The translations under genes were made by a program, and so were the position numbers. The notes under the pieces are model-generated. The model ran no database searches and was not told the DNA's origin. It saw only the letters and a program-made list of their open reading frames with translations. A stretch of DNA of 35,116 nucleotides. It comes from a virus. Shown here piece by piece: positions 4,361 through 25,927 of the stretch. The stretch's first letter is position 1. Every line of letters begins with the position of its first letter. The stretch spans positions 1 through 35,116 of IMG/VR virus record IMGVR_UViG_3300029922_000196; one strand, given 5' to 3'.

Positions 4361-4367
4361 AGGTAAT

Positions 4368-4799: not shown

Positions 4800-4800
4800 C

Positions 4801-5481
4801 CTGCCCGGCTCCTGCGAGATCTCCGGCTGCGATCGGCCGCCACGAGGGCGCTACTGCCGCATGCACGCGGCACGCGCTGCTCGTGGCGCGCCGATGCACG
4901 CGCCCGTGCAGGAGCGATTGCCACCCGCCGAGCGCCTCGAGGCTGCAGCGCTCGCGTTCGCCGAGGCCGAGGACGACGACGAGTTCGCGCAGGCACGCCT
5001 GAACCTGCAGAAGGCCGCGAAGCGCTACCGCCGCCACGCAGACCTGTCGCTCGCGGCGAAAGCGCGCTGGCGCGCCTGCAAGGACCGCCAGCAGGCCGGC
5101 CGGATGCTCGCAAACCGCCGCTGGGAAAAACTGTGGCCCGAGGGAGAAATGCGTGCACGCACGCATGGTCCCGAAGACGCGTCGCCGACGCCCGCGGAAT
5201 CTGTGGCATCGCCGGCGCAGGATGCAGGGCATGAAGAACAAGCCTCCACGCACGGGCCAGTTCAAAGCGGGACAGAGCGGCAACCCGGGCGGGATGCCAA
5301 AGGGCGTGCGCGAGCTGCGGCTGCTGGCGCTGGAGCACAGCCCGGCAGCCCTCAAGCGCTTGGTCGAGCTGGTGCAGAGCCAGGACGAGCGGGTGGCAGT
5401 GCACGCGGCGGAAGCGGTGTTGGACCGAGCGGGCCTGCGCCCGTTCTCGCTGGAGCCGGACAAGATCGAGGTGACTGGTGA
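4801..5481 (+). CDS. Zinc-finger (HNH-associated type) protein, start uncertain
   Basis: The frame is open from before 4801 to a TGA at 5479-5481. CEISGCDRPPRGRYCRMH resembles the C-x4-C...C-x2-H knuckle that precedes many phage HNH endonucleases, but no HNH catalytic core follows; instead there are Ala/Arg-rich helices. No ATG precedes the knuckle, so a rare CTG at 4801 is proposed; an ATG at 4861 would remove the knuckle. Its last 250 bases overlap the DUF5681 gene in another frame, while its stop forms a GTGA overlap with the terminase start. It may end earlier in function than its frame suggests. Confidence 0.45.
   Translation: MPGSCEISGCDRPPRGRYCRMHAARAARGAPMHAPVQERLPPAERLEAAALAFAEAEDDDEFAQARLNLQKAAKRYRRHADLSLAAKARWRACKDRQQAGRMLANRRWEKLWPEGEMRARTHGPEDASPTPAESVASPAQDAGHEEQASTHGPVQSGTERQPGRDAKGRARAAAAGAGAQPGSPQALGRAGAEPGRAGGSARGGSGVGPSGPAPVLAGAGQDRGDW
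5196..5223 (+). promoter_or_regulatory. Late promoter-like element, copy A (packaging)
   Basis: GGAATCTGTGGC at 5196-5207, then 10 bases, then CAGGAT (5218-5223) as a -10-like hexamer. The ATG of the DUF5681 gene (5231) is exactly 23 bases after the 12-mer. This copy lies inside the preceding zinc-finger frame, unlike the other four. Confidence 0.6.
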
Positions 5482-5584
5482 CGGGATCGGCGCTTTCGAG
5501 AAGCTCTCTGCTCTCGTCGCTCGCCGCCTTGCCGGCGACGGACCGCGCGCAGCTCTTGGCGCAGCTGACACCACGCCAGGCTGA
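5231..5584 (+). CDS. DUF5681 protein, small-terminase candidate
   Basis: 117 residues. GQFKAGQSGNPGGMPKG (residues 9-25) is the diagnostic start of DUF5681 proteins, which commonly lie directly before large terminase genes and are thought to act as small-subunit or DNA-recognition partners. Two helical segments follow (ALEHSPAALKRLVELVQ; AVHAAEAVLDRAG). The ATG at 5231 is chosen over an ATG at 5153 because the family motif starts right there and because it is 23 bases after late element A. It overlaps the terminase gene by 107 bases and the preceding frame by about 250. Confidence 0.75.
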   Translation: MKNKPPRTGQFKAGQSGNPGGMPKGVRELRLLALEHSPAALKRLVELVQSQDERVAVHAAEAVLDRAGLRPFSLEPDKIEVTGDGIGAFEKLSALVARRLAGDGPRAALGAADTTPG

Positions 5585-6818
5585 AGAGCTCGTCCACGAC
5601 TGGCGCGTCTGGGCGCGACCCGCGCAGCTGCTGCCGGAGGGCGACTGGGACACGTGGCTCATCCTGAGCGGCCGCGGATGGGGCAAGACGCGCACCGGCG
5701 CGGAGGCTGGACGCTGGTGGGCGAAGATGCCGATCGTCCCGCGCATCGCGTTGGTGGGCCGCACCGCAGCCGACGTGCGCGACGTCATCGTCGAGGGCGA
5801 GAGCGGTATTCTGGCGATCGCGCCGAAGTGGGAGCGGCCGCTCTACGAGCCGAGCAAGCGACGCCTGACCTGGCCGAATGGTGCGATCGCGACGACGTAC
5901 TCCGCTGACGAGCCGGATCTACTCCGCGGTCCACAGCACCACTTCGCGCTCTGCGACGAGCTCGCGAGTTGGCGCTACCTCGAGGAGACGTGGAGCAATT
6001 TGATCTTTGGCCTGCGCCTCGGCGCGAACCCGCGCAAGGTCATCACGACGACTCCGCGGCCGCTCGCGATCTTGAAGCGATTGCTCAAAGATCCGCGATG
6101 CCGCGTCACACGCGGCAGCACCTACGACAACGCGGCGAACCTCGCATCGACAGCGCTCGCCGAGTTCCGCGCGAAGTACGAGGGCACGCGTCTCGGCCGG
6201 CAGGAGCTCGGCGGCGAGGTGCTTGACGACGTGCCGGGTGCGCTCTGGCAGCGAGATGCGATCGACGCGCTCCGCGTGCGCGAAGCACCTGCGCTCTCGC
6301 GCGTCGTGGTCGCGATCGATCCCGCGGTCACGAGCGGCGAGGACGCGGACGAGACCGGCATCGTGGTGGCCGCGCGCGGCGAGGATGGCGCGTTCTACGT
6401 GCTCGCCGATCGCACCTGCCGCATGTCGCCCGACGGCTGGGCGCGGCGCGCGGTGATCGCGCTCGACGAGTTCGCGGCCGATCGCATCGTCGCCGAGGTG
6501 AACAACGGCGGCGAGATGGTCGAGCACACGCTGCGAACGGTGCGCTCGAGCGCGCCCTACAAGGCCGTGCACGCGAGCCGCGGCAAGCGCGTGCGCGCGG
6601 AGCCCATCGCCGCGCTCTACGAGCAGGGCAAGGTGCACCACGTCGGCGCGCTGCCCGAGCTCGAGGACCAGATGTGTTCGTTCCTGCCCGAGGGCAATGA
6701 GAAGTCGCCCGACCGCGTCGATGCGCTCGTCTGGGCGCTCACCGAGCTGAGCGACGGCGCAGGTCTCGGCATCCTCGAGTTCTACCGGGCGCAGGCGGAG
6801 GCCAAGGCGGCAAAGTAG
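5478..6818 (+). CDS. terL: Terminase large subunit
   Basis: 446 residues, normal length for the Terminase_6 class. Walker A is SGRGWGKT (64-71); Walker B with catalytic Glu is FALCDE (D160, E161); the TTTPRP coupling motif is near 190. The RNase-H-like nuclease has D281 (VAIDPAVTSGEDAD), E340 (IVAEVNNGGE) and D412/D415 (SPDRVDALVWA). The enzyme pumps DNA into the prohead and cuts it. The GTG at 5478 keeps the family-typical N-terminus LTPRQAEELVHDWRVWARP and overlaps the DUF5681 gene in another frame. The ATP-powered packaging partner is the portal encoded two genes on. Confidence 0.95.
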   Translation: MTGSALSRSSLLSSLAALPATDRAQLLAQLTPRQAEELVHDWRVWARPAQLLPEGDWDTWLILSGRGWGKTRTGAEAGRWWAKMPIVPRIALVGRTAADVRDVIVEGESGILAIAPKWERPLYEPSKRRLTWPNGAIATTYSADEPDLLRGPQHHFALCDELASWRYLEETWSNLIFGLRLGANPRKVITTTPRPLAILKRLLKDPRCRVTRGSTYDNAANLASTALAEFRAKYEGTRLGRQELGGEVLDDVPGALWQRDAIDALRVREAPALSRVVVAIDPAVTSGEDADETGIVVAARGEDGAFYVLADRTCRMSPDGWARRAVIALDEFAADRIVAEVNNGGEMVEHTLRTVRSSAPYKAVHASRGKRVRAEPIAALYEQGKVHHVGALPELEDQMCSFLPEGNEKSPDRVDALVWALTELSDGAGLGILEFYRAQAEAKAAK

Positions 6819-6825
6819 CCGCGGC

Positions 6826-6853
6826 GGAATCTGTGGCCACCGGCCCGTAGCTT
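6826..6853 (+). promoter_or_regulatory. Late promoter-like element, copy B (head start)
   Basis: GGAATCTGTGGC at 6826-6837, then TAGCTT (6848-6853). It starts seven bases after the terminase stop. Here the next ATG (6891) is 53 bases away and has its own purine-rich GAGGGCGAAG, so this copy would give a leadered message, unlike the other four. Confidence 0.6.
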
Positions 6854-6890
6854 CATCCTCGCGCAGTTCTCACTCGCGAGGGCGAAGACC

Positions 6891-7190
6891 ATGTCCGCAA
6901 CCATCACGATGCTTGCACCCAACTCCGCCGGCGGCACGTACGTCGCCGCGGATGGAACGGTCTTCACGCCCGCGTCCGATGGCACCGTGCAGGTCCCTCA
7001 GGGCTACTTCTCGCAGCTGCAGGCGATGGGCTTCTCCGTCGTCAACGACGTCGGCATTGACCCGACCAGCGGCCGCCCCACGCTCAACCTGCTGCCCGGA
7101 CAGCCGTGGTTCGACTCCACGCTCGGCATCCCGATCTGGCGCAACGCCTCGAACACCGGCTGGATCAACGCCTCCGGAACCTCGGTCTAG
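6891..7190 (+). CDS. Small structural protein between terminase and portal
   Basis: 99 residues. The C-terminal part LLPGQPWFDSTLGIPIWRNASNTGWINASGT resembles a short beta-motif found in many phage structural proteins (PFFDTTLGKPIW-type). The N-terminus is Gly/Thr/Asp-rich and beta-like. Its position between terL and portal and behind a late promoter-like element suggests a minor head or decoration protein, but no family could be named with certainty. Confidence 0.65.
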   Translation: MSATITMLAPNSAGGTYVAADGTVFTPASDGTVQVPQGYFSQLQAMGFSVVNDVGIDPTSGRPTLNLLPGQPWFDSTLGIPIWRNASNTGWINASGTSV

Positions 7191-7193
7191 CTC

Positions 7194-8651
7194 ATGGCCG
7201 AGCGCCGCGGCACGCCCATCGACCCCGGCCTCATTGCGCGCGCCTCGCGCGCGGTGAGCGCCGCTGTCGGCGGCATGATCCGCGGCGCCTCGGAGGCCTG
7301 GTTCGGGCCGGCGCAGCCGATGGCGCCTGGCGCGCCGGATGACGTGCGCGGCCGCGCGTTCGATTACGCCGTCGGCTACAACCTCAACGGCTCCCAGCCG
7401 CGCAGCGAGCAGGGCAGCGATCAGATCACCTTCCACCAGCTGCGCGATCTTGCCGAGCCCACGCGCGGCGGCCTCGACATCCTTCGCCTCGTCATCGAGA
7501 CGCGCAAGGACCAGATGGAGGCGCAGGACTGGGACATCAAGGGCGTCGACGGCTCTGACGGCGGCGCGCGCGCGAAGGAGATCAAGGCGGCGCTGCGCAA
7601 GCCAGACGGCATCCACACCTGGTCGCAGTGGATGCGCATGATCCTCGAGGATCTGCTCGTCATCGACGCGCCCACCGTCTACCTTTCGCCCAGCGCGCTC
7701 GGCCACCTCGTGCCCGAGGTCATCGACGGCGCGACCATCAAGCCGCTGATCCGCCCCGACGGCCGGCAGCCGATCGATCCCGATCCGGCCTACCAGCAGG
7801 TGCTCAAGGGCATCCCTGCCGTCGACTACCGCGCGGCAGAGCTCGTCTACATGCCGCGCAACGTGCGCAGCCACCGCATCTACGGAATGAGCCCCGTTGA
7901 GCAGGTGGTGACGATGATCAACATCGGCATCCGCCGCGAGCTCTTCCAGCTCGAGTACTACACGGCCGGCAGTGTGCCCGACGTGCTCCTCGGTGCGCCG
8001 TCGACCTGGTCGCAGAAGCAGCTCGCGGACTTCCAGAACTACTGGGACTCGCTGCTGAGCGGCAACACCGCAGAGCGGCGCCGCGCACGGTTCGTCCCCG
8101 GCGATGTGAAGCCGTACGAACTGAAGTCTGGCGTGCTCAAGGACGAGTACGACGAGTGGATCGCGCGCATCGTCTGCTTCTGCTTCTCGATCTCGCCGCA
8201 GGCCTTCACGAAGCAGATGAACCGCGCCACCGCGGAGACCGCGAAGCAGGCAGCCGCCGAAGAGGGCCTCGAGCCTCTGAAGCGCTGGTTCCGCGACTTC
8301 ATGAACGAGGTGATCTCGCGCGCGTTTGGAGCGGACGATCTCACGCTCGTCTGGATCGACGAGGAGATCGCCGATCCAGAGGCGAAGGCGACCGTGATGT
8401 CGACTGCGCTCGGCGCCGGTGGCGGCAAGCCCTGGCTCACCGTCGACGAGGTGCGCGCCAAGTACGGCGAGCAGCCCATGACCCCCGAGCAGCGCGACGA
8501 ACTGTTCCCGCCGCCTCCGCCCGCACTCGAGCAGGGCGACGGCACCGGCGACGGACAGCCCGATGGCAGCGGTCCACCCGAGCCGCCCGCGACGAAGGTC
8601 GCCAAAGCGGCTCGGAGGTCGCTTCGACCGCGACCGCCCGCTGGTCTCTGA
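7194..8651 (+). CDS. Portal protein
   Basis: 485 residues, usual for an HK97-like portal. Recognised stretches are the TFHQLRDLAEPTRGGLDILRLVIETRKDQ region, VVDAPTVYL-like strand (VIDAPTVYLSP), RAAELVYMPRNVRSHRIYGMSPVEQV (the wing/stem landmark) and VCFCFSISPQAF before the crown helices. The Pro-rich acidic C-terminus is disordered. Portals form the dodecameric DNA channel and dock the terminase and connector. Its 3' end overlaps the MuF gene by 89 bases, a common arrangement in which portal and MuF are translated together. Confidence 0.92.
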   Translation: MAERRGTPIDPGLIARASRAVSAAVGGMIRGASEAWFGPAQPMAPGAPDDVRGRAFDYAVGYNLNGSQPRSEQGSDQITFHQLRDLAEPTRGGLDILRLVIETRKDQMEAQDWDIKGVDGSDGGARAKEIKAALRKPDGIHTWSQWMRMILEDLLVIDAPTVYLSPSALGHLVPEVIDGATIKPLIRPDGRQPIDPDPAYQQVLKGIPAVDYRAAELVYMPRNVRSHRIYGMSPVEQVVTMINIGIRRELFQLEYYTAGSVPDVLLGAPSTWSQKQLADFQNYWDSLLSGNTAERRRARFVPGDVKPYELKSGVLKDEYDEWIARIVCFCFSISPQAFTKQMNRATAETAKQAAAEEGLEPLKRWFRDFMNEVISRAFGADDLTLVWIDEEIADPEAKATVMSTALGAGGGKPWLTVDEVRAKYGEQPMTPEQRDELFPPPPPALEQGDGTGDGQPDGSGPPEPPATKVAKAARRSLRPRPPAGL

Positions 8652-9981
8652 CGCGCGCGAGCGCATTCGCGCGGCCTGCACCTCGTTCTTCGCCGCGGCG
8701 GCGCGCTCGGTCTCGCTTCGCGCGCGCGGTGGCGCGCACAAGTCTGCAACCCCCCTTCTCGCCGAACAGCAAGAGGGGGACCTTGCCAAGGCAGGCGCCG
8801 ACGACAAGGACCGCGACCACACGCCCGCAGCGGACATCGACTACGAGCCGCTGCGCGCGGAGCTCGAGCCGCAGCTGCAGCGCATCGCGCAGGATGCCGC
8901 GCGCCTGGGCCTCGAGCAGGTCGATGCCGATCTGGCCGCGCTTCTCGACCAGGCCAACGAGCAGGCGATCGCCTGGGCGCACGACCACTCCGCAGAGCTG
9001 GTGAAGGGCCTCGACGCGACCACGCGCGATCTCGTGCGCACGCTCACGCAGGAGGCGCTCGAGGAGGGCTGGAGCAACGACACGCTCGCGGACGAGCTCG
9101 AGGGCAGCGAGGCCTTCAGTGAGGCGCGCAGCGAGCGCATCGCGCGCACCGAGACCGCGTTCGCGGACGTGCAGGGCAATCTGATCGGATGGGACGAGAG
9201 CGGCGTCGTCGAGGGCAAAGAGTGGCTCACCGCGCCGGACTGCTGCGATGAGTGCCAGGCGCTGCACGGCGAGATCGTGCCGCTCGACGAGGACTTCAGC
9301 GACGGCAGCGACGGACCGCCCGCGCATCCGATGTGCCGATGCGACGTGCTGCCGGTGTTGCGCGAGGACGCCGAGAAGCTCGCGAAGTACCCGGGCCAAC
9401 CACGCAACGCGCTCGGTCAGTTCGATAGCAACGGCGGTGGTGGTGGAGGAGGGGGCGGAGACGAAGGGCCACACGCACCGAAGGAAGAGAGAAGCCCTTC
9501 GCCGCCTTGGCCCACGGACAGAAAGAAGAGAGCGCCAGGCAAGATCATTGGAACGCCTGACCATACGGTCTCAGACGAAGAGAAAGAACTCGTCGAGAGA
9601 TTAGTCGGAGAAGGCAGAAATTTTCAGTGGGCAAAGCAGGCAGATCAGGCCCCCGATACGCGCATGCCGGAGGGCTGGCTTAGCAGCGAAGAGCCTCCGC
9701 CTCGAACGGTAGCGAACTCAATCGAAATCAAGCACCTAGCCGAGAACAGCAAGGATGCAGTTCGTGCATGCCGGAGAACCATCTCTGAGTCACTAGAGGA
9801 GCATGGTCAATCTCCGAACATCATCATCGATGGAACCAGGCGCGGGCTCACAGAGGCAGACGCGGATGCTGTTGCCAGCTATTTCCGGGGCAAACGACAC
9901 CATCCGGAGAAGGAAGGTCCGTTGTGGCATTTGCGGTTCATCAACGATAATATCGACCTCGACAAGACGGTCTCGCTCTAG
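8563..9981 (+). CDS. MuF-type head morphogenesis protein fused to CdiA-like tRNase toxin domain
   Basis: 472 residues in three parts. Residues 1-276 are a Mu gpF minor head protein: RIARTE, then CCDECQALHGE and PPAHPMCRC (H255, C258, C260). Residues 277-324 form a linker with the PRNALGQF motif and nine consecutive Gly (291-299). Residues 325-472 are an AT-richer C-terminal module with EIKH (388-391), NIIIDGTRRGLTEADA (419 on) and LWHLRFIND, a pattern like BECR-fold tRNase tips of CdiA toxins. MuF proteins with polymorphic toxin tips are known from other temperate phages. The toxin might ride in the virion or act in bacterial competition. Toxicity and target are inferred; the following gene is the likely immunity factor. 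Confidence 0.8.
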   Translation: MAAVHPSRPRRRSPKRLGGRFDRDRPLVSDARERIRAACTSFFAAAARSVSLRARGGAHKSATPLLAEQQEGDLAKAGADDKDRDHTPAADIDYEPLRAELEPQLQRIAQDAARLGLEQVDADLAALLDQANEQAIAWAHDHSAELVKGLDATTRDLVRTLTQEALEEGWSNDTLADELEGSEAFSEARSERIARTETAFADVQGNLIGWDESGVVEGKEWLTAPDCCDECQALHGEIVPLDEDFSDGSDGPPAHPMCRCDVLPVLREDAEKLAKYPGQPRNALGQFDSNGGGGGGGGGDEGPHAPKEERSPSPPWPTDRKKRAPGKIIGTPDHTVSDEEKELVERLVGEGRNFQWAKQADQAPDTRMPEGWLSSEEPPPRTVANSIEIKHLAENSKDAVRACRRTISESLEEHGQSPNIIIDGTRRGLTEADADAVASYFRGKRHHPEKEGPLWHLRFINDNIDLDKTVSL

Positions 9982-9989
9982 GAGGGCTT

Positions 9990-10346
9990 GTGTCGCAAAG
10001 CATCGGCATCTTCTTTGGTGGGAAGTCGGCAACCCTGTCGGACATCGCGCAGGACATTGAAGCTGTTGCTGGCGTCAAGCGCCTCGAAAGGGACGCTACG
10101 AGAGCCTGCGGGTTCAAGCTTGACGGTCTTCTTGGGACGCTCGTCTCGAATCCACATGTGGACGACGACGAGGTCAAAGACTTCAGCGCAGAACTCATTA
10201 TCGATGGTCGTGGTGCGGACCTGGAGGCCACGGGCCGCAAGTTGTTCGAGGGTCTTCGCGGGCTGAACAAATATCAGCAGCTACTGACGCTTGATGCGGT
10301 CGAGTTGGATAGCTTCAAGCCGTCGGGTCCAAACGCGACCGCGTAA
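9990..10346 (+). CDS. Candidate immunity protein for MuF-linked toxin
   Basis: 118 residues from a GTG with GGAGGG (9981-9986) just upstream, beginning eight bases after the toxin stop. It has no head-protein signature, is acidic and mixed alpha/beta, and shares the AT-richer composition of the toxin tip rather than of its neighbours. Small proteins directly after toxin-tipped genes usually neutralise the toxin by blocking its active site. No named immunity family was recognised, so the role is inferred from position and composition. Confidence 0.6.
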   Translation: MSQSIGIFFGGKSATLSDIAQDIEAVAGVKRLERDATRACGFKLDGLLGTLVSNPHVDDDEVKDFSAELIIDGRGADLEATGRKLFEGLRGLNKYQQLLTLDAVELDSFKPSGPNATA

Positions 10347-10397
10347 GTCGCTGTGTTTCCCTCGCGCTGATGTCCTGCGCGCGATTCCCATAGCTCC

Positions 10398-10425
10398 GGA
10401 ATCTGTGGCCGCGCGAGCTGAAGCT
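10398..10425 (+). promoter_or_regulatory. Late promoter-like element, copy C (protease/capsid)
   Basis: GGAATCTGTGGC at 10398-10409, then GAAGCT (10420-10425). The ATG at 10433 is exactly 23 bases after the 12-mer and has no Shine-Dalgarno. Copies C and D also share flanks from TAGCTCC through CGCGCGAG. The remaining spacer 10347-10397 holds no recognisable gene. Confidence 0.65.
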
Positions 10426-10432
10426 GCTCGGC

Positions 10433-11680
10433 ATGGCACACGCGATCCGCGTCTACGGCTCGATCTCCAAGGTCACCAAGCAGGACGACGGCACCCTCAT
10501 CGTCGAGGGCATCGCCTCGACTGAGTCCGTCGACTCGCAGGGCGAGGTCGTCAAGGCCGACGCGATGCGCGCGGCGCTGCCCGACTTCATGAAGTTCGCC
10601 AACGTCCGCGAGATGCACCAGCCGATCGCCGCCGGCAAGGCGATCGAGTGCACCGTCGACGACGCGGGCGTCACGCACATCAGCGCGCACATCGTCGACA
10701 GCGACAGCTGCAAGAAGGTCGAGGCCGGCGTCCTGCAGGGCTTCTCGATCGGCGGCCGCGCCACCAAGCGCTCCAGCGACAACGCCAAGGTGATCGAGGG
10801 CCTCAAGCTCTCCGAGATCAGCCTCGTCGACCGCCCGGCCAATCCGGACGCGCTCATCACGCTCTTCAAGATGGACGTGGCCGAGCCCGTCGAGAAGGGC
10901 ATGTACCAAGTTGCCTGGGCCGCGCACCTGTGCGGCGAGCTGAGCGCGCTCTCCACCGACGCGCAGTTCGAGGCCGACTTCGAGGGTGACTCCTCGCCCG
11001 TTCCCGCGCGCATCAAGGCCGTGGTCGCCGAGCTGTGCTCGGTGCTGCGCGACTTGGTCGCGGAGGAGACCGCGGAGCTGGTCGGCGACGCCGGCGAAGA
11101 GGTCGACGTGGTCGGCCTCGCGGAGAAGCCGGGCGCGCTCAAGAAGAGCGAGAAGCTCGGCGCCATCGCGCGCGCGTTCATCGCCGCCGCGAAGGGCGAG
11201 CCCATCGAGAAGAAGGGCGCGAAGTTCTCGAAGGCCACGGCCGACGCGATCGCCGACATCCACAAGTGCGTGAAGGACGCGCACGAGAAGCTCGGCGCGC
11301 TCGGCTACGACAAGGACAGCTCGGACGCCGAGGACGAGAAGAAGGACGACGTCGGCATGGCCGCGCAGGTCGGCGAGCTGCAGAAGCGCGCCGCCGATTC
11401 CGAGGCCGCGCTCGCGAAGGCCGAAGAGGCCACCAAGCTCGCCGGCGACGCGCTCAAGAAGGTGCTCGCCGAGAGGGAGGCGCTCACGAAGCGCCTGTCC
11501 GCGGCCGAGATCGAGCTGAAGAAGAAAGGCTCGCTCAAGGGCGTCCCGATCTCGAAGAGCGACGACGCCGCGCGCATCGCCGCGGACGCGAAGCCGATCC
11601 CGGGCGCGACCGGCGAGGCCGCCGAAGCCGCCTCTCTCCTCAAGGCCGTCCACGCCGCGGGCGGAAACCGAATCCTCTAA
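10433..11680 (+). CDS. Prohead protease fused to scaffold
   Basis: 415 residues. Residues 1-150 match the S78/XkdF-type prohead protease: VEGIASTESVDSQGE (24-38), NVREMH with H62, GVLQGFSIGG with S106 as probable nucleophile, and EISLVDRPANP (128-138). Residues 330-400 form an Ala/Glu/Lys-rich coiled coil (EEATKLAGDALKKVLAEREALTKRL), typical of a delta/scaffold domain that fills the prohead and is removed by self-cleavage. The gene directly precedes the capsid gene. It starts behind late element C without a ribosome-binding site. Confidence 0.85.
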   Translation: MAHAIRVYGSISKVTKQDDGTLIVEGIASTESVDSQGEVVKADAMRAALPDFMKFANVREMHQPIAAGKAIECTVDDAGVTHISAHIVDSDSCKKVEAGVLQGFSIGGRATKRSSDNAKVIEGLKLSEISLVDRPANPDALITLFKMDVAEPVEKGMYQVAWAAHLCGELSALSTDAQFEADFEGDSSPVPARIKAVVAELCSVLRDLVAEETAELVGDAGEEVDVVGLAEKPGALKKSEKLGAIARAFIAAAKGEPIEKKGAKFSKATADAIADIHKCVKDAHEKLGALGYDKDSSDAEDEKKDDVGMAAQVGELQKRAADSEAALAKAEEATKLAGDALKKVLAEREALTKRLSAAEIELKKKGSLKGVPISKSDDAARIAADAKPIPGATGEAAEAASLLKAVHAAGGNRIL

Positions 11681-11724
11681 CCCCCAGCCCTCGGCCTGGC
11701 CGGGGACCCAAAGGAGCAACAGAT

Positions 11725-13260: not shown

Positions 13261-13274
13261 TTCAGCGCTCGCGC

Positions 13275-13307
13275 GCAGGAGCCCGGCCGACTGCACCGGG
13301 CTCCTGC
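13275..13307 (+). terminator. Hairpin after major capsid gene
   Basis: GCAGGAGCCCGG (13275-13286) and CCGGGCTCCTGC (13296-13307) form a perfect 12-base stem with a 9-base loop, 14 bases after the capsid stop. There is no T run, so it could be a partial terminator, an RNA-stability element or a processing site that keeps capsid output above that of downstream genes. Confidence 0.55.
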
Positions 13308-13325
13308 CTCCCTCGGAGCATCCTC

Positions 13326-13619: not shown

Positions 13620-13622
13620 CCA

Positions 13623-14668: not shown

Positions 14669-14672
14669 CTCC

Positions 14673-14700
14673 GGAATCTGTGGCCGCGCGAGCCGATGTT
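14673..14700 (+). promoter_or_regulatory. Late promoter-like element, copy D (tail start)
   Basis: GGAATCTGTGGC at 14673-14684, then GATGTT (14695-14700). The ATG at 14708 is exactly 23 bases after the 12-mer, which decides the start over an in-frame ATG at 14696 that would lie inside the element. No Shine-Dalgarno is present. Confidence 0.65.
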
Positions 14701-14707
14701 GCTCGGC

Positions 14708-15381: not shown

Positions 15382-15384
15382 CTC

Positions 15385-16128: not shown

Positions 16129-16131
16129 CCA

Positions 16132-18508: not shown

Positions 18509-19248
18509 GCACGCTCCTCTGGCCCACGTTCCCCGGGCAGACGCTCAGCGTGAAGCGCACGCCGCTCTGGGCGACGGACGTGCAGGAGTCGCGCTCCGGC
18601 AAGGAGCAGCGCATCGCCTACTGGGCGACGCCTCGCTACCGCTGGGATCTCGAGCTCGAGTTCGCGCGCGCGGGCGGCAACACGATCACCGTCTACAACA
18701 CCGGCGGCTCCGCGCAGTTCACGGGCAGCGAGGCAGCTGCGCTGGCGTGGTTCCAGGCCCAGATGCGCGGCAAGTGGGACTACTTCTACTTGAACGATCC
18801 GTTCGCCGTTCAGCCCGCCTATTACAACGGCGGCACTCCGGTTGTCGCGCCGACGCCGACCGCGACGCCCACGACCGGCACCGGCAGCATTCCCGCCGGC
18901 ACCTACTACTACTCGGTCACCAGCGTGACCGCGCTCGGCGAGTCGGTGCAGGCCGAGTGCACATGCACGCTCTCGGCGATCGGCGAGATCACCGTCAGCT
19001 GGTCGGCCGTCTCCGGCGCGCTCTCGTACAACGTCTACGGGCGCTCGACGACGCAGGGTAACGAGCTCTTCATCGCGAACACCGCGTCGACGAGCTACGT
19101 CGACAGCAGCACCACCATCACGCCCGCCGGGCCCATGCCGCAGCTGCGCGTGCGCTTCGACATGGACGATCTCGAGATGGAGCAGCTCGAGGACTACTCG
19201 CGCGTCTGGTCGACGAAGAGCATCACGATGATCTCGGTGCGGCGATGA
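18505..19248 (+). CDS. DUF2460-like distal tail protein with FN3-like insertion
   Basis: 247 residues starting in an ATGA overlap. WPTFPGQTLSVKRTPLWATDVQESRSGKEQR at the N-terminus and WFQAQMRGKWDYFYLNDPF are DUF2460 landmarks. Residues 115-215 hold an FN3-like module (SIPAGTYYYSVTSVTALGESV; SWSAVSGALSYNVYGRS) related to the one in the capsid and next gene. The C-terminus LRVRFDMDDLEMEQLEDYSRVWSTKSITMISVRR resumes the family domain. In GTA-like tails this protein links tube to hub. Confidence 0.82.
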   Translation: MSTLLWPTFPGQTLSVKRTPLWATDVQESRSGKEQRIAYWATPRYRWDLELEFARAGGNTITVYNTGGSAQFTGSEAAALAWFQAQMRGKWDYFYLNDPFAVQPAYYNGGTPVVAPTPTATPTTGTGSIPAGTYYYSVTSVTALGESVQAECTCTLSAIGEITVSWSAVSGALSYNVYGRSTTQGNELFIANTASTSYVDSSTTITPAGPMPQLRVRFDMDDLEMEQLEDYSRVWSTKSITMISVRR

Positions 19249-20447
19249 AGATCGCCTCGTCGTCGCTGCTCTCGCTGCTCAACACCAACCTTGGCTCGGA
19301 CGTCGAGCTGATGATGGCGCGGCTCTACACCCTCACGCTCGTCGGCGGCGGCGTCTTCCGTTGGACCGACTACGAGACGGACCTCACGCTCGCATTGCCG
19401 GTGCCGGTCAACGGTTCCTATACGGCCGGCGCAGGCACGCTCACCGCGGGGACATATTACTACCGGGTGACGGCGCTCTTCGGGCCCGCGAATGAGTCGC
19501 TGCCGTCGGCGCAGACGCCGGCGGTGATCGCGACGACGGAGGGCATCAACGTCAATTGGTCCGCCGTCAGCGGCGCCACCGGCTACCGCATCTACGGGCG
19601 CACGTCGGGCGCCGAGCTCTACTTGGGCGCGGTGGGCCCAGGCGTGCTCACCTGGCTCGACACAGGCGCGATCACGCCAAGCGGCGCGATGCCGAGCGCG
19701 GCGCCAACGTTCTCCTCGAGCGGCCCAGCGATCACGGTTGGCAAGTCGCGCCAGGTCAACGGCGTCGAGCTGTGCGATATGGAGCTCGGCCTCTACGGCG
19801 GCACCGCGCCCGGCGGGGGCGCCGGATACTCGCTTCCTGGCTACACCTCGCTGTCGCTGGCGGCACTGCAGGGTGCTTTCGACAACGCGACAATGCAGGT
19901 CGACAAGCTCTTCATGGCGTCGCCCGGCGACGTGAGCCAGCAGCCGCTCTGCTGGTTCGTCGGTCTCGTCTCGGAGGCGGCGCCGAAGAGCAGCGGCGTC
20001 GAGCTGACGTTGAAAGGCTCGACGGAGCTCCTCGCGAACCTCCAATGGCCGAAGCGCACCCTGATGCCGCAGTGCCCGTACTCGCTCTACGATGCGAACT
20101 GCACCGTGGTGAAGGCGCCGGTCACCGTCTCGGTCCAAAGCGGCGCAACGACCACGAGCGTCACCGTCAGCGGGCTCGCGCACGGCGCGTACACGCTCGG
20201 CACTATCAAGTTCGCAGACGGCGAGAGCCGCCAGATCATCGCGATGGCGAGCAGCGGCTCGAACGACGTGCTCACGCTGAACATGCCGCTCAATACCGTG
20301 CCCAGCGCCGGCACGAACAACGCGACCGTGCTGCTCGGTTGCAACAAGAGCACGACCACGCTGGGCACCGACTCGGGGAATTGCACAACGCTTGGCGGCC
20401 GCTTTGGCGGATTCCCGTTTGTCCCACGGCCGGAGTCGATCCGATGA
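19245..20447 (+). CDS. DUF2163-like baseplate hub protein with FN3-like insertion
   Basis: 400 residues starting in an ATGA overlap. The N-terminal domain (TLTLVGGGVFRWTDYETDLTL) is interrupted by an FN3-like module (residues 58-160: LTAGTYYYRVTALFGPANES, WSAVSGATGYRIYGRTSGAE), then resumes with KSRQVNGVELCDMELGLYGG. The C-terminal part carries the Cys pattern of this family (MPQCPYSLYDANC; GNCTTLGGRFGGFPFVP) that probably binds an iron-sulfur or metal centre. A beta domain VTVSGLAHGAYTLGTIKFADGESR here is duplicated in the tip gene at 20896. Confidence 0.82.
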   Translation: MKIASSSLLSLLNTNLGSDVELMMARLYTLTLVGGGVFRWTDYETDLTLALPVPVNGSYTAGAGTLTAGTYYYRVTALFGPANESLPSAQTPAVIATTEGINVNWSAVSGATGYRIYGRTSGAELYLGAVGPGVLTWLDTGAITPSGAMPSAAPTFSSSGPAITVGKSRQVNGVELCDMELGLYGGTAPGGGAGYSLPGYTSLSLAALQGAFDNATMQVDKLFMASPGDVSQQPLCWFVGLVSEAAPKSSGVELTLKGSTELLANLQWPKRTLMPQCPYSLYDANCTVVKAPVTVSVQSGATTTSVTVSGLAHGAYTLGTIKFADGESRQIIAMASSGSNDVLTLNMPLNTVPSAGTNNATVLLGCNKSTTTLGTDSGNCTTLGGRFGGFPFVPRPESIR

Positions 20448-20896
20448 GCGAGCAAGAGCAGCGCGCGGCGGTGGTCGCGGAGGCGCGGACCTGGTTGGGG
20501 ACGCGATGGATCCACGAGGCACGCGTCAGGGGCGCGGGCGTTGACTGCGGGCAATTGCTGGCGGCGGTCTATGAGGCGTGCGGGATCATCGGGTCGGTCA
20601 CGATCGAGAGCTATCCTCGCGCGTGGGCGCACCACCGAGGCGAGGAGAAGTTCCTCGGTTACGTCGAGCAGATGGCCGCGCGGGTGACCGACCGAGAGCC
20701 GCTGCCGGGCGACATCGTGCTGTTCCGGTACGGGCGCTCCCTCTCGCACGCCGGCATCGTCGTCGAGTGGCCGGTGATCGTGCACGCCTATGCTGACGTT
20801 GGCCAGGTCACTCTCGACAACGTCGATCACCGATTCGACCTGCGCGCTCGGTATGCCGGCGCGTGGGACCCGTGGGCTCGTCGGGGGGACAAATAA
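20444..20896 (+). CDS. NlpC/P60 tail peptidase
   Basis: 150 residues from an ATG in an ATGA overlap. AGVDCGQLLAAVYEACG places the nucleophile at C35, GDIVLFRYGRSLSHAGIVV gives H102, and IVHAYADVGQV gives H114 as third polar residue. These enzymes cleave peptidoglycan peptides so the tail can pass the wall. The order DUF2460, DUF2163, NlpC/P60, tip protein is a conserved tail-tip cassette. It ends in a TAATG overlap with the tip gene. Confidence 0.9.
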   Translation: MSEQEQRAAVVAEARTWLGTRWIHEARVRGAGVDCGQLLAAVYEACGIIGSVTIESYPRAWAHHRGEEKFLGYVEQMAARVTDREPLPGDIVLFRYGRSLSHAGIVVEWPVIVHAYADVGQVTLDNVDHRFDLRARYAGAWDPWARRGDK

Positions 20897-23800
20897 TGGC
20901 CGGCGCAACGACGACGGGTGGTCATAGCATTGGCGGTCTGAACAACGATCAGCTGCCGCCGGTAGAAACAGCCTCATACGGAAAGTGCTTGCCCGTCGTT
21001 TACGGCACCAACCGGATCGCCGCGTCGATCATCTGCATGCCGCCCGAGCTGTGGATCAGCGGCGCGGGGAATGGTGGTGGCAAGGGCGGCGGCAGCGCTG
21101 GTAGCGGCTACTATCAGGGCGTCTGGATCGCCATCGCCGAGGGACTCAGCGGGTGCTCGACCGGTCGCATGTGGGTCGATAAGGACGTCTTCCCGACGAC
21201 GACCACGAACATCGACGGCAACTCGAGCGACGGCTCGAAGCCGTTCGAGTTTCTGCCTGGCTCTCGTCCGCAGAGCCCGCCGGCGGACTGGACGAACACG
21301 GGCGGCGCGACATCGCCCATCAGCGTGACCATCACGGGCACGCCCACCACCACCACGGTCACGGTATCGGGACTCGCGCACAACACGACGGGCTATCTGT
21401 TCGGGACCATCTATTTCCAGGACGGCGAGAGCCGCGCGATCATGGGGATGGCCGCGAGCGGCGGCAATGACGTGCTCACATTCGCGGTCGCGCTCACCAC
21501 GGCGCCCACGTCTGGCGCGCTCGCGGTTGTGGTCGCGTCGGTTCCGAGCAACATCCAGAACTATCGATGCGTCAACGCGGCCGTCCCCGCAGCTGGGCCG
21601 TTCACACTGAGCGTTACCGCGCCAGGAGGGAACGGCACAGATCAGTCGTGGACACAGGATGCGAACGTTGCCTCGCCGGTGCGCAGCATGATCGAGGCGA
21701 CGGTATTCCCGAACGCGCCAAAATACCTCGTCTCCGGTCCCATCGCTGCCCTCTCTGGTGCGACGTGGGTTGGCTCGGTCAGCGGAACAGTGCTCACGGT
21801 CACTTCGGTTCTGCGCGGCACGATCGCTGTCGGGATGACGCTCTTTGATGAGGGCAACAACTTCACCGGCGGGAACACGCAGATCACTTCACTGGGGACC
21901 GGCACCGGCGGAACTGGCACCTACAACCTGAACCTCGGAGGAAGCGTCTCCAGCGAGACGATGAGCGGCGGCGCGGATTACAACGCGACAGCCGGCGTCT
22001 ACACATTCAACGGAGCGACTTTCACTGGGACAATCAGCAACGGCAGCGGCGGCGCCGGCAACACGCTCACGGTCTCTTCGGTGTCGAGCGGCGTGCTCGC
22101 GGTCGGAATGCAGATCGTGAACCTCGGCGGGAGTGGTGTTCCTGCGAACACATGGATCAGCGCTCTCGGCACAGGAACGGGCGGCGCGGGCACCTATGCT
22201 CTCAGTACCTCCGCAAACGTTGCCAGCGTATTGATGGGCGCCGGCCAGTGCGGCGCGCCGGTCGCGATCTCGTATTACATCAGCACCGATATCGGGAAGT
22301 ATTCACTCGGATATAGCGGCACGGCGGTGCTCGCGTCGAAGTCGCTCTCGCTGGGCACCTCGAATGCGATGAAGAACTTCTCCATCGAGTTCAATGGGCT
22401 GCTCACGAACGGCACCGCGGGAGATGTCAACCCCGCCCTGATCCTCGTCGACATGCTTACCAACACGCAGTACGGCATGGGCTTCCCCGCCTCTGCGGTG
22501 AACGCGCTCTATGGTCCCGATGGGACGACCGCGACGGGGCTGCAGACCTACTGCGCGCAGGCGGGCATTCTGTTGTCGCCGATCTTCGACGAGCAGAAGA
22601 GCGCTCTGGAGCACATCGACTGGATCCTCGACGCCTGCAACGCCGAATGCATCTGGTCTCAGGGGCGCCTGAATATCTATCCCGTCGGCGACGCGAATAT
22701 CGGTAGCTATACGGCATATACCGTTGCGCAATACTCGCTCAACGAAGACAACATGTTGGCGAGCGACGGCAAAGACATGATCGAGTTCACTCGCATCAGC
22801 GCGCAGGAGACATACAACTGCTGCCCGATCGAGTTCGTTGACTCCCAGACGCCGGACCAGAACTCGCAATATCAGATCAGCACCGTGCAGGACTTCGAGC
22901 AGCCTGACGTCGATGCCTCGGGCGGCATCGTGCGCAAGAAGGGCGCGAAGTCGCTCAAGTGCATCACGAAGCAGGCGATCGCCCAAGTGCTATCTCGGAT
23001 GATGGCGCAGCGGAGCGTCTACGTCCGCAACAGCTACAAGTTCAAGCTGCCGCAGCAGTTCTGCCTGCTCGAGCCGTTCGACCTGCTGCAGATCAGCGAC
23101 TCCACCGTCGGGTTGGTCAACCAGGTCGTGCGCATCCTCTCGATCGAGGAAGACGAGCACGGCGAGTTCGATGTCGACGCGGAGGACGCAGCGATCGGGC
23201 GCGCGTCCTCGGTCGCCTACGGCACCGGCTCCGCACAGGGCGGTGGCCACGTCGTCAACACAGTGCCGTTTCCTCCGAGCACGCCGATCTTCTATATGCC
23301 TCCGCTGCCCGCAACGGGCGCGGGCAGGCCGCCTGGCGGGTTCGGCGTCGGCGGCTGGACTGGACCCTATCCGGTCCACAACTCGAAGCCGGTTGGGCCC
23401 CAGGCGATCACGCCCGAGATCTGGGTGTCCGTCGCTAGCAACGGAAAAGACTGGGGCGGGGCTCAGGTTTATATGAGCTTCGACGGCACCAATTACACAT
23501 ATCAGGGAGATATCGGCGCCGCGACGACGGGCGTGATCGCCAGCTCGGGATTCCCTGCCGGCTCTCCGCTCGACACCACGAACTCACTGATTGTCAGCGT
23601 CGCATCCTCGAACGGAACGATCTCCCCTGTGCAGGCAGCCGACCGAGATGCGTTCTCCTCGATGGCGCTCGTGGATACGGGCGCCGCAGCCGAGTTGATC
23701 GCCTATCAGGGATCCACCCTGTCCGGGACCAATCAATACACTCTGACCAATCACCGACGTGGACTCTACGGGACGCCGGTCGGCAGCCATGCAGTGGGCG

Positions 23801-24843
23801 CGCAGTTCACGATCATCGACCAGAACGTCCTCAAGATTCCGATCGACTCGAGCCGCGTGGCGGCCGGCAACGTCGTCTATTTCAAGCTGGCCAGCTACAA
23901 CCTCGCGCGCACGCAGTCGATGGCGCTCTCTCTCTGCCCGGTCTTCACGTACACGATGGCGGGACCCGGCGCCGCGGGCGTGCAGCTCCTGCCCGCCATC
24001 GAGTCTCTGCCGCTGCGCATCTCGTTCGACACCTACGACGCCACGCAATGGGATTTCCCGGTTAACGGTCCGGGCATCCTCTCGATAAAGCAGAACACCG
24101 ACTCGCACGGTAGCGGGAAGAGCGCGACGCCGGTCGTCGGCGGCCATATGCTCGAGTGCTCGGCTGGCCAGGTGATGATGGTCCACCGGGCGCTGATCCC
24201 GTATGACCCCACGAAGGTCTATCGGATCCAGGCTGCCGTGAAGCAGCGCAGCGGCGCTACCGCGCGCAGCATGTACGTCGGATTCGTCGCGGTAGGAAAT
24301 GACGGCGTCACCCAATACGACGTGAACGGCGTCACCACCAACGGCAGCAATCCGGCCGTGCAGCATTGCGCGGTTTATCCTGGCTATGCCGGTGGAAGCG
24401 GATGGGTGAACCTCAACGCCTATTATAGCAATCTGTTCGGGACGGGCACGACGCCGGGCTCCGCGAGCGGCGCGACGCCCTCACCAGCATATGCCGGCAC
24501 TTGTTATATGCGTATGTTTGTCGCATTCAATTTCACGGGTGCGGCCGTGATGGATATCAGCACGCTGCAGGTGTCGGAGGTTGCGACCGCTGGCGCGCTA
24601 GCGGGACAACTCAGCGAGAACATCACCGCGAGCGTCTCGACGACCTACAACACGAACGACACCTATACGACGGCCAACCCGCCCGCGGCCGGGACGGTTC
24701 CATCGGTCTACGTCGGGGGCGTGCTACAGCCGACGACCAACTATCAGATTGATCCAATGAGCACCGGGACCGGGGCCTACGTCTTCGGAGCGAATTATAT
24801 CCCCTCGGGCGAACAGGTGGTGGTGATCTATGCATCGGTATAA
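20896..24843 (+). CDS. Tail tip / host-specificity protein
   Basis: 1315 residues, start at the ATG in a TAATG overlap. The N-terminal hub part (VVYGTNRIAASIICMPPELW; GVWIAIAEGLSGCS) and the long central region (TNTQYGMGFPASAVNALYG; PIFDEQKSALEHIDWILDACNAECIWSQGRLNIYP) match gpJ-like/GTA-type tips. Residues 190-460 contain beta inserts with repeated units ending LGTGTGGTGTY and LGTGTGGAGTY. The C-terminal 300 residues look like a carbohydrate-binding or receptor-binding fold with STTYNTNDTYTTANPP. It sets host range and joins the fibre-like protein encoded next. Confidence 0.85.
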   Translation: MAGATTTGGHSIGGLNNDQLPPVETASYGKCLPVVYGTNRIAASIICMPPELWISGAGNGGGKGGGSAGSGYYQGVWIAIAEGLSGCSTGRMWVDKDVFPTTTTNIDGNSSDGSKPFEFLPGSRPQSPPADWTNTGGATSPISVTITGTPTTTTVTVSGLAHNTTGYLFGTIYFQDGESRAIMGMAASGGNDVLTFAVALTTAPTSGALAVVVASVPSNIQNYRCVNAAVPAAGPFTLSVTAPGGNGTDQSWTQDANVASPVRSMIEATVFPNAPKYLVSGPIAALSGATWVGSVSGTVLTVTSVLRGTIAVGMTLFDEGNNFTGGNTQITSLGTGTGGTGTYNLNLGGSVSSETMSGGADYNATAGVYTFNGATFTGTISNGSGGAGNTLTVSSVSSGVLAVGMQIVNLGGSGVPANTWISALGTGTGGAGTYALSTSANVASVLMGAGQCGAPVAISYYISTDIGKYSLGYSGTAVLASKSLSLGTSNAMKNFSIEFNGLLTNGTAGDVNPALILVDMLTNTQYGMGFPASAVNALYGPDGTTATGLQTYCAQAGILLSPIFDEQKSALEHIDWILDACNAECIWSQGRLNIYPVGDANIGSYTAYTVAQYSLNEDNMLASDGKDMIEFTRISAQETYNCCPIEFVDSQTPDQNSQYQISTVQDFEQPDVDASGGIVRKKGAKSLKCITKQAIAQVLSRMMAQRSVYVRNSYKFKLPQQFCLLEPFDLLQISDSTVGLVNQVVRILSIEEDEHGEFDVDAEDAAIGRASSVAYGTGSAQGGGHVVNTVPFPPSTPIFYMPPLPATGAGRPPGGFGVGGWTGPYPVHNSKPVGPQAITPEIWVSVASNGKDWGGAQVYMSFDGTNYTYQGDIGAATTGVIASSGFPAGSPLDTTNSLIVSVASSNGTISPVQAADRDAFSSMALVDTGAAAELIAYQGSTLSGTNQYTLTNHRRGLYGTPVGSHAVGAQFTIIDQNVLKIPIDSSRVAAGNVVYFKLASYNLARTQSMALSLCPVFTYTMAGPGAAGVQLLPAIESLPLRISFDTYDATQWDFPVNGPGILSIKQNTDSHGSGKSATPVVGGHMLECSAGQVMMVHRALIPYDPTKVYRIQAAVKQRSGATARSMYVGFVAVGNDGVTQYDVNGVTTNGSNPAVQHCAVYPGYAGGSGWVNLNAYYSNLFGTGTTPGSASGATPSPAYAGTCYMRMFVAFNFTGAAVMDISTLQVSEVATAGALAGQLSENITASVSTTYNTNDTYTTANPPAAGTVPSVYVGGVLQPTTNYQIDPMSTGTGAYVFGANYIPSGEQVVVIYASV

Positions 24844-25888
24844 ATCAATCGTTGCCGCGATTCTCTGTGTCTCTCTTTCTGTTAGCGCTGCCGATATCGC
24901 CGGAGGGACGCAGCTAAAACAAAGCGCTGCCGGATCGACGCCTGCGCTCTGCGGCGTATACCTGGGATCGTCGACATATCAGGCATGTCTATTCGCTGCG
25001 CTCGGCTCGCTCAACTACAACCCGATCGTGCAAGCGAACGACAGCGGGATCATATTCAACTCCGGCGGCATCGGGACAGGCGCGTTTGTTCTTGCGCCAC
25101 ATTCCTCGAGCAGCATAGGCCTGCGAATGACGAACAGCGGGACGACGCTCAGTGGGGCATTCACGTTGCCGAGCACGACGGGCCTCTATCTTGGGAGCAC
25201 GAGCGGCGGCCAGCTGTGGTGGGACGGGTCGGGACTCAACCTGTCCTCGATTGGCTCGGGGGCCTACATGATTGTGAGCGGCGGCCCGGGAGGAACCAGC
25301 ACGGTCTTTGTGCGGCCGACGCAGGGGTCGACGACCGGCCAAACACTATTCACCAACACGCTAACGACGTTCAATACGCCGCTGACGATCAATGGAAACC
25401 AGATAACCCTCTCCAATGGAAGCACGGGAACCCTCAGTATGGGCCCGTCTTCAAACGGATTGATTCAGTGGGATGGTTCAGAAACGGTTTTCTCTTCCAC
25501 GGCCACTATGTACCTCGAGGGGAGCTCTACTGGCTCGTCGATTGTATTCCAGCCTCAGCGCGGGGCCACCGTGGGATCGTTCACGACGAATGGCCTGGTT
25601 ATTGGCGCCAGCGGAACAGCAATCGGCACCTGCTATATGGCGTCAGCGAGCGAAACCCCGGGAGCCATCCCTGGTAATAACTGTTCCGACTCTGCCGCGA
25701 TCACCGTGACTGGCGTTGTGGCCGGTGATGCGTGTGTCGTTGGCGTCCCATCAACCGGAGCCGGAACGGCGATCAGCGCGACTTGCTACGTGAGCGCGGC
25801 GAACGCGGTCAAGATCCGCTGGTGCGATTCGAGCGCGAGCGCGAACACCGGCACGAGCGGCACTTACACCGTCCGCACCTTCCACTAG
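24830..25888 (+). CDS. Fibre-like protein with N-terminal signal peptide
   Basis: 352 residues, overlapping the tip gene by 14 bases. The N-terminus MHRYKSIVAAILCVSLSVSA (cleavage likely after residue 20) is a good Sec signal peptide, unusual for a virion protein. The rest is Gly/Ser/Thr-rich repeated beta, like tail fibres. The C-terminus (VTGVVAGDACVVGVPS; ISATCYVSAANAVKIRWC; SGTYTVRTFH) is a small domain common at phage fibre ends. Codon use and GC are lower than in head genes. It could be a fibre or an exported cell-surface protein. Confidence 0.65.
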   Translation: MHRYKSIVAAILCVSLSVSAADIAGGTQLKQSAAGSTPALCGVYLGSSTYQACLFAALGSLNYNPIVQANDSGIIFNSGGIGTGAFVLAPHSSSSIGLRMTNSGTTLSGAFTLPSTTGLYLGSTSGGQLWWDGSGLNLSSIGSGAYMIVSGGPGGTSTVFVRPTQGSTTGQTLFTNTLTTFNTPLTINGNQITLSNGSTGTLSMGPSSNGLIQWDGSETVFSSTATMYLEGSSTGSSIVFQPQRGATVGSFTTNGLVIGASGTAIGTCYMASASETPGAIPGNNCSDSAAITVTGVVAGDACVVGVPSTGAGTAISATCYVSAANAVKIRWCDSSASANTGTSGTYTVRTFH

Positions 25889-25892
25889 GCCC

Positions 25893-25920
25893 GGAATCTG
25901 TGGCCGTCGGGCGGCACGCT
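25893..25920 (+). promoter_or_regulatory. Late promoter-like element, copy E (lysis)
   Basis: GGAATCTGTGGC at 25893-25904, then CACGCT (25915-25920). The endolysin ATG (25928) is exactly 23 bases after the 12-mer, with no Shine-Dalgarno. It starts five bases after the stop of the fibre-like gene. Confidence 0.65.
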
Positions 25921-25927
25921 CTGCGGC

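Follow-up and report, generated by a model that had tools for sequence, protein, structure and literature searches.

The window, the whole stretch of 35,116 nucleotides of viral DNA analyzed here, carries five elements that we judge fairly probable to be the late promoters of an uncultured temperate phage. Each would combine a sigma70-type −10 element with a box for a phage factor in place of the −35 element, and four would give rise to leaderless transcripts. The box is an invariant 13-base word, CGGAATCTGTGGC, which includes the 12-mer GGAATCTGTGGC. This word, its spacing, a downstream A/T pair, a fixed ATG register, and the weaker Shine–Dalgarno (SD) pairing of four starts as a group can be read from the DNA itself. 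The features concerned are listed below.

5195 to 5207, plus strand: box copy 1 (terminase block), exact match
5218 to 5223, plus strand: −10-like CAGGAT of copy 1, with the invariant A and T columns
5231 to 5584, plus strand: small-terminase-like gene (Pfam DUF5681, E 7.5e-9), ATG 23 bases past the 12-mer
6825 to 6837, plus strand: box copy 2 (head block), exact match, the sole copy without an ATG at +23
6848 to 6853, plus strand: −10-like TAGCTT of copy 2, with the invariant A and T columns
6891 to 7190, plus strand: first gene past copy 2, SD-like GAGGG upstream (SD energy −6.4 kcal/mol), portal gene next
10397 to 10409, plus strand: box copy 3 (protease/capsid block), exact match
10420 to 10425, plus strand: −10-like GAAGCT of copy 3, with the invariant A and T columns
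10433 to 11680, plus strand: prohead protease gene (PHROG and Pfam matches), ATG at +23 from the 12-mer
14672 to 14684, plus strand: box copy 4 (tail block), exact match
14695 to 14700, plus strand: −10-like GATGTT of copy 4, with the invariant A and T columns
14708 to 15172, plus strand: tail-region gene without assigned function (phrog_8150 match), ATG at +23 from the 12-mer
25892 to 25904, plus strand: box copy 5 (lysis block), exact match
25915 to 25920, plus strand: −10-like CACGCT of copy 5, with the invariant A and T columns
25928 to 26569, plus strand: endolysin gene (GH19; PHROG endolysin, E 7e-73; Pfam Glyco_hydro_19), ATG at +23 from the 12-mer
267 to 272, plus strand: TACATT, 6 bases 5′ of the start codon (ATG at 279) in a Cro-like gene with an HTH match

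An earlier note on this DNA had reported five identical repeats, without a copy elsewhere and always ahead of a module. This observation holds and is stronger than first noted. Exact copies of the 12-mer start at 5196, 6826, 10398, 14673, and 25893, all on the plus strand, and neither strand of the window has an exact match beyond these five. The preceding base is a C in every copy, which extends the repeat to 13 bases. Against the 13-mer, the plus strand holds five sites with zero mismatches, none with one or two, and two with three, and the minus strand holds one site with two mismatches and six with three. By chance, 0.01 copies of the 12-mer are expected, and none of 100 shuffled sequences reached five. 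Random occurrence, which the same note had named as grounds for giving up the idea, is rejected by the chance expectation, the shuffles, and the mismatch spectrum. The blocks downstream of the copies are, in order, packaging (terminase), head, protease/capsid, tail, and lysis. Copy 1 lies within an open frame (4657–5481) that may be partly coding.

Two of the copies are closely related. Positions 10391 to 10437 and 14666 to 14712, surrounding copies 3 and 4, form a 47-base pair that is 94% alike, a relationship absent from the earlier note, and the five copies therefore represent about four independent ones. Among non-sister copies, the 23-base spacers between box and start position are identical at only 7 to 13 of 23 positions, whereas the box itself is constant. 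The gaps from 14668 to 14708 and from 25888 to 25928 contain 39 bases made up of the 13-mer, the 23-base spacer, and three others, and nothing else. A terminator scan of positions 4200 to 24000 found seven candidates versus 9.2 in shuffles, with a weak stem at 10335 to 10351, shortly upstream of copy 3.

Downstream of the box, an A at spacer position 12 and a T at position 16 are invariant in all five copies. This bears out the prior description of a NANNNT hexamer at normal spacing, as 17 bases lie between it and the opening hexamer of the 13-mer in one common register. The only further invariant columns within the 50 downstream bases are a C at 23 and a G at 26. With the sister copies counted once, the analytic chance of an A/T pair four apart in any of 19 registers is approximately 1e-5, and the pair arose in none of 200,000 random four-site draws. 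In four copies no other register gives a NANNNT, and the 6826 copy has a second one. The two invariant bases are A−11 and T−7 of sigma70-type −10 elements. Measured against the sigma70 class, the elements conserve these two bases and replace TTGACA by another conserved word (CGGAAT matches it at two of six positions, and 13 of 13 box bases are conserved in place of the hexamer), but they lack a good match to TATAAT, and the leading T is absent in four of five. Because the −10-like hexamers match only two to three of six positions, we describe the elements as working like activator-box promoters of the sigma70 type rather than as proven members. A sigma70 consensus scan of positions 4200 to 24000, which hold four of the five elements, returned a single match (9924–9951; 1.3 in shuffles) and none at the elements.

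In four of the five copies, an ATG follows the 12-mer at a distance of exactly 23 bases (5231, 10433, 14708, and 25928), a feature that had not been noted before and whose approximate chance is 3e-4 with the sisters counted once. The full register is thus box, 10 bases, NANNNT, 7 bases, ATG. For each of these four genes, either the identity or the N terminus is supported. The gene at 5231, which belongs to a family whose members we take to be small terminases, extends past the start of the large terminase ORF at 5478. Among PHROGs, the 10433 product is matched best by a family without assigned function (1e-59), followed by several head maturation protease families (best 4e-17), with Pfam Peptidase_S78 and S78_2 at 2e-5. 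The 14708 gene has an alternative in-frame ATG at 14696, and position 1 of the phrog_8150 profile (unknown function) aligns to residue 8 of the 14696 ORF, which is residue 4 from 14708.

If the A/T pair serves as a −10 element, then the box would span −35 to −23 and RNA synthesis would begin at the start codon (strict numbering puts the A of the ATG at +2), producing a leaderless mRNA. The fixed ATG points to leaderless transcripts. The hexamer ends 7 bases before the start codon in these four copies, within the spacing of about 6 to 7 bases expected of such genes. Leaderless bacterial genes carry TANNNT about 12 bp upstream of the start, and in high-GC groups its middle three bases are low in information, according to the relevant part of PMC3160421; in Deinococcus, PMC12340547 places the motif 6 to 7 bp ahead of the ORF. 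PMC5312081 remarks in passing that phage transcripts are often leaderless. The TACATT ahead of the Cro-like gene is an independent hint of a leaderless promoter.

In SD pairing, the box-linked starts differ modestly from other late starts. Their median SD energy, over four starts, is −3.65 kcal/mol; at the 20 late starts used for comparison it is −6.35 kcal/mol (p 0.015, one-sided), and at random positions −2.7. The ranges overlap, in that the endolysin (−5.5) is near ordinary and four of the 20 are at −4.1 or weaker. One of the 20 comparison starts hinges on the choice of start, for which 20896 (−9.1) was used rather than 20863 (−3.1). Copy 2, which has no ATG at +23, precedes a gene led by an SD sequence. 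At the protease orthologues of six scored relatives, SD energies range from −4.0 to −11.4, compared with −3.5 plus the box in this phage; the scored set excludes L009, whose start is too near the contig end, as well as L240 and four loci with protease matches (L011, L016, L241, and L242).

Leaderless starts have been described or predicted for other phages. Most middle and late mRNAs of phiYS40, a phage that infects Thermus, lack a leader, and the relevant portion of PMC3594737 mentions no repeated 13-base −35 box. Some predicted SigA promoters of cluster O mycobacteriophages put +1 on the first nucleotide of the start codon, but these are SigA-like promoters, and the repeated word of these phages is a separate 17-base dyad, as described in sections of PMC4351075.

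In geometry, the elements read as counterparts of the MotA-box promoters of phage T4, with the −35 contact replaced by a phage-specific box. At T4 middle promoters, a phage word likewise supplants the −35 element ahead of a sigma70-type −10 (PMC2988021 and PMC7403470, in the portions that treat it), and the MotA box, which spans −35 to −26 where 13 bp separate it from the −10, overlaps the present box in position (PMC2988021). There are differences as well. The word here is a different one and is invariant next to a poor −10, whereas MotA tolerates changes in its box and an excellent −10 is required at nearly all T4 middle promoters (PMC2988021). Moreover, Pfam and PHROGs recognized no phage activator, whether MotA-like, AsiA-like, or other, among the proteins scanned, and the genes concerned here are late ones with probable leaderless starts. 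A candidate activator gene at 4368 to 4799 has no Pfam or PHROG match, yields a poor single-sequence model (pLDDT 49.9), and has no relatives in the phages and viral_contigs collections. The gene at 958 to 1428 carries the PHROG label 'endolysin; inhibits RNA polymerase', but its top match is a dATP/dGTP pyrophosphohydrolase, and it was therefore set aside as a regulator.

It is unlikely that these promoters are read by a sigma factor of the phage's own, ECF-like or not, for which the 13-base box would itself be the −35 element. Direct recognition would suit a long fixed word in the −35 region joined to a poor sigma70-type −10, and GGAAT resembles the −35 words of ECF promoters, whose −10 words are CGTT, CGTC, and GTT. 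In the 15-base stretch searched, however, no copy has CGTT or CGTC and GTT occurs only in the 14673 copy, which leaves four of five copies without a common ECF −10 word, whereas the A/T pair that the copies do share is of the sigma70 type. No sigma factor was recognized by Pfam or PHROGs among the proteins scanned, a set that covered part of the ORFs and included several small proteins without matches. Thus, of the late promoter proposed in the earlier note, the phage-specific, one-directional promoter-like element ahead of the blocks and its normally spaced −10-like pair have support from the sequence, but the ECF-like sigma has none. In copy 5, a CGTC is located directly 3′ of the box, outside the 15-base stretch. 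A sigma54-type promoter was also rejected, as alignment by eye reveals no common GC at the −12 position.

We regard it as improbable that the box acts in the mRNA, as a translation-start sequence at a set distance before the start codon. The start-associated sequences (SAS) of cluster K mycobacteriophages are similarly 13-base asymmetric words ahead of an ATG, typically in one orientation, but they typically lie 3 to 7 bases from the start, carry AGGAG, number 11 to 19 copies, and are confined to genome halves with non-structural genes, as far as the relevant passages of PMC3203893 describe them. The present box lies 23 bases from the start at a constant distance and has no AGGAG. Although in three copies the end of the box is base-paired, in the minimum-energy fold, to the bases immediately 5′ of the ATG, folds of the five 39-base elements are no better than those of shuffled sequences (z −0.90 to +0.65). 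Furthermore, the 6826 copy lacks a start codon at the set distance and nonetheless keeps the A/T pair.

Slightly less probable still is a repressor or stoperator-like site that silences the late modules in the prophage rather than activating them. The phage has the genes of a temperate phage, namely an integrase and a Cro-like gene, and stoperator-like sites are one-directional. Against this reading, every copy precedes a late block, its distance from the −10-like pair is constant, as is that from the ATG in four of them, and no exact copy occurs elsewhere, the repressor/Cro region included. Finally, we give very little credence to short boundary homology that aids module recombination, or to a recently copied cassette without function, because, despite the position of the copies at module borders and the extended likeness of copies 3 and 4, the other flanks show no relationship although all 13 bases of the box persist, and the fixed spacing to the A, the T, and the ATG is left unexplained.

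The search for the motif in relatives, as recommended earlier, turned up no virus beyond the phage's own population that has the repeated box (302 loci, mostly fragments). Pattern scans of viral_contigs with the word plus the A/T pair hit many contigs among the matches listed, and with the word plus the ATG hit 44 stretches. Among 147 loci (L091–L237), 10 have two or more matches when up to one mismatch is permitted (GC 0.42 to 0.60), and none has more than one exact copy. The contigs L006, L007, L008, L144, L199, and L235 belong to the same virus population and are nearly identical to the window; the copies that they cover are unchanged, and copy 1 is covered by none. A scan for any exact 10-mer with at least three copies at one distance from an ATG was run on the 302 other loci (3.62 Mb; terminase or capsid relatives plus pattern-hit contigs, many of them fragments). 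After rows with a downstream similarity of 0.55 or more were dropped, 19 loci were left, and no comparable element was seen in the five inspected (L117, L264, L265, L287, and L316), whose rows were judged to be chance words, repeats (coding or tandem), or, in L287, an intergenic repeat. An 8-mer scan gave chance rows in many loci; of the six viewed, two (L066 and L088) turned out to have repeats inside coding sequence.

A host was sought with the 41-base 3′ half of a tRNA adjoining the integrase, allowing up to three mismatches. This query matched none of 13 genomes holding relatives, none of 289 in the class of G001, none of 148 in the phylum of G010, and none of 59 in the phylum of G006, a set that shares genomes with the G010 phylum. 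It matched one of 149 in the phylum of G003, with three mismatches, and one of 121 in the class of G532, which is the same match in sets that share some genomes.

In the late-promoter model that we favor, host RNA polymerase with a sigma70-type factor would read a minimal −10 (NANNNT, with A at −11 and T at −7), and the box at −35 to −23 would substitute for the usual −35 contact. The phage itself would make the factor that binds the box, and would do so late; an activator is the most likely candidate, a sigma factor a less likely one. RNA would start at the ATG, or within a base of it, in four of the five copies, so that the small-terminase-like gene, the protease, the first tail-region gene, and the endolysin would be the first cistrons of leaderless mRNAs. 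The 6826 copy would instead produce a short leader carrying an SD sequence, and the inner genes of each block would be translated from SD sites or by overlap. Promoter status, RNA start site, binding factor, and late timing are the parts of this model that we infer. Its fullest form, in which five −35-replacing boxes read by a candidate phage factor control the virion and lysis blocks and four of these blocks open with a gene on a leaderless mRNA, is one that we advance tentatively, with slightly less than even confidence.

If this is true, late control would act jointly on transcription and translation, because a start codon at the 5′ end would be present only on messages initiated at the boxes, and late protein synthesis at the heads of the blocks would be independent of SD sites. 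The elements would then constitute a new class of phage late promoter, with a long invariant box in place of the −35 element and a start codon that doubles as the transcription start, and would imply a phage activator of an undescribed kind.

The viral record (35,116 bases, GC 0.67) looks like the genome of a temperate tailed phage, a reading based on its gene set together with an integrase gene and the tRNA 3′ half that adjoins it. The features that bear on the analysis are as follows.

1–200, minus strand: repressor-like gene, recognized by eye and divergent from the Cro-like gene
237–509, plus strand: Cro-like gene, ATG at 279, protein with a helix-turn-helix (HTH) match
27614–27658: 45-base copy of a tRNA 3′ half, from the CAT anticodon loop to CCA, adjoining the integrase gene
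27713–28852, minus strand: integrase
29614–30375, minus strand: phrog_18079 (DUF7666) gene, holding a 24-base repeat array at 29702–30019 reported as 10 overlapping 102-base copies in 24-base steps
Also encoded: DnaB-like helicase; DUF5681 protein in the small-terminase position; large terminase; portal; prohead protease; probable major capsid protein, named from the annotation of distant phage relatives; tail proteins; GH19 endolysin

The first 41 bases of the tRNA copy are identical at 38 of 41 positions to one genome locus, where ARAGORN reports tRNA-Met(CAT), and 27614–27658 is probably an attP in a tRNA-Met gene. When the large terminase was compared with a phage collection, Brevundimonas phages ranked at the top (52.8% identity, 95% covered) and a Microcystis phage third (55.4% identity, 90% covered).

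The earlier note had described five identical late promoter-like elements, and the word GGAATCTGTGGC is indeed present exactly at 5196, 6826, 10398, 14673, and 25893, on the plus strand only. Because a C precedes it in all five copies, the repeat is better described as 13 bases, CGGAATCTGTGGC, for which the plus strand holds five perfect copies and two that differ at three positions, with nothing at one or two mismatches. Four times, this one 12-base word stands at a single fixed distance from an ATG; among 30 Markov-simulated sequences, no 12-base word did so more than twice. Conservation is concentrated in the word itself (13/13), as non-sister copies are identical at 7 to 13 of the 23 spacer positions and at 3 to 9 of the 20 bases upstream. 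Copies 3 and 4 are sisters, 94% alike over 47 bases from a TAG to just past the ATG. This TAG serves as stop codon for the upstream neighbor of copy 4 but does not end the gene listed ahead of copy 3, a difference suggesting that copy 3 derives from copy 4. Between the minor head protein and protease genes lies a small gene (9990–10346) with a low coding score and no significant family matches, which may be an insertion. Copy 1 is located within an open frame (4657–5481) that may be partly coding.

An A at position 12 and a T at position 16 after the 12-mer are invariant in all five copies, as had been claimed, and are consistent with A-11 and T-7 in a −10 hexamer of the sigma70 type. If the T is taken as −7, the word spans −35 to −23, and its first six bases are separated from the hexamer by 17 bases. 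In four copies an ATG (5231, 10433, 14708, and 25928) follows 7 bases past the hexamer, its A being +2 in strict numbering or +1 given a 7-base discriminator. Copy 2 (6826) carries GCG where the others have ATG, and the gene after it starts at 6891, preceded by an SD-like GAGGG. Counting against a promoter is the agreement of the hexamers with TATAAT, at only two to three of six positions.

Leaderless starts are likely at the four genes with an ATG in this register, judging from the register and from their Shine-Dalgarno (SD) energies (−3.8, −3.5, −2.2, and −5.5 kcal/mol; median −3.65). As a group these are weaker than at 20 other late starts (median −6.35; one-sided Mann-Whitney p 0.015), for one of which 20896 (−9.1) was used in preference to 20863 (−3.1), but four of the 20 are at −4.1 or weaker. 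At random positions the median is −2.7, one quarter of them reaching −5, so −5.5 alone says little. Six relatives had their protease orthologues scored, with values from −4.0 to −11.4. Excerpts of published work put TANNNT some 12 bases upstream of the start in leaderless bacterial genes, its middle three bases holding little information in high-GC groups (PMC3160421), and give 6 to 7 bases between motif and ORF in Deinococcus (PMC12340547). The hexamers at the four late ATGs are NANNNT, lacking the leading T. Among 31 starts checked, a full TANNNT occurs in the last 20 bases only at the Cro-like gene, where TACATT stands 6 bases ahead of the ATG; GCGCTACATT is found twice just upstream of this gene.

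On these grounds, the best reading of the elements is a late promoter, which retains that part of the earlier proposal; its ECF-like component is unsupported, the A/T pair fitting a sigma70-type −10 instead. Host polymerase with a sigma70-type factor would act with a phage activator bound at the 13-base box, RNA would begin at the ATG of a block's first gene, and downstream genes within the block would be translated via SD sites or overlaps. No regulator gene was recognized among the proteins scanned. Ahead of gene 4368–4799, the final clear gene upstream of the small-terminase-like one, lies an AT-rich segment (4328–4367) with an inverted repeat seen by eye (TTGAATC/GATTCAA) and a strong SD; it is a possible site of late-regulator control.

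Searches beyond this population turned up no virus with the repeated box: each of 147 loci examined has at most one exact copy, and nothing comparable appeared among the rows inspected in a 302-locus scan. In contigs of the same population, copies 2 to 5 are unchanged wherever covered and copy 1 is covered by none, which is weak evidence because these contigs are nearly identical to the window. Differences between the contigs of this virus are concentrated at 14000–14500 and 16500–17000 (L006) and at 18000–18500 (L006, L144, and L235), in the vicinity of the adaptor and tape-measure genes. Confidence in the model as a whole is moderate, slightly reduced by the dependence of the SD contrast on a single choice of start and by a scan for the box elsewhere whose rows were inspected in part.

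The nearest mechanism by analogy would be the T4 middle promoter, where the MotA box takes the place of the −35 element before a sigma70-type −10, acting with sigma70 and, at a distance of 13 bp from that −10, occupying −35 to −26 (PMC2988021). The proposed leaderless starts would be shared with Thermus phage phiYS40, in which the majority of middle and late mRNAs are described as leaderless (PMC3594737, excerpt), and with predicted Cluster O mycobacteriophage promoters that put the start codon at +1 (PMC4351075, excerpt); leaderless phage transcripts have been called frequent (PMC5312081, excerpt). Our limited literature search, covering parts of the sources, found no description of a box combined with start-codon register. 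Leaderless mRNA is already known from phages; what looks new in this one is the invariant −35-region box held in register with the start codon.
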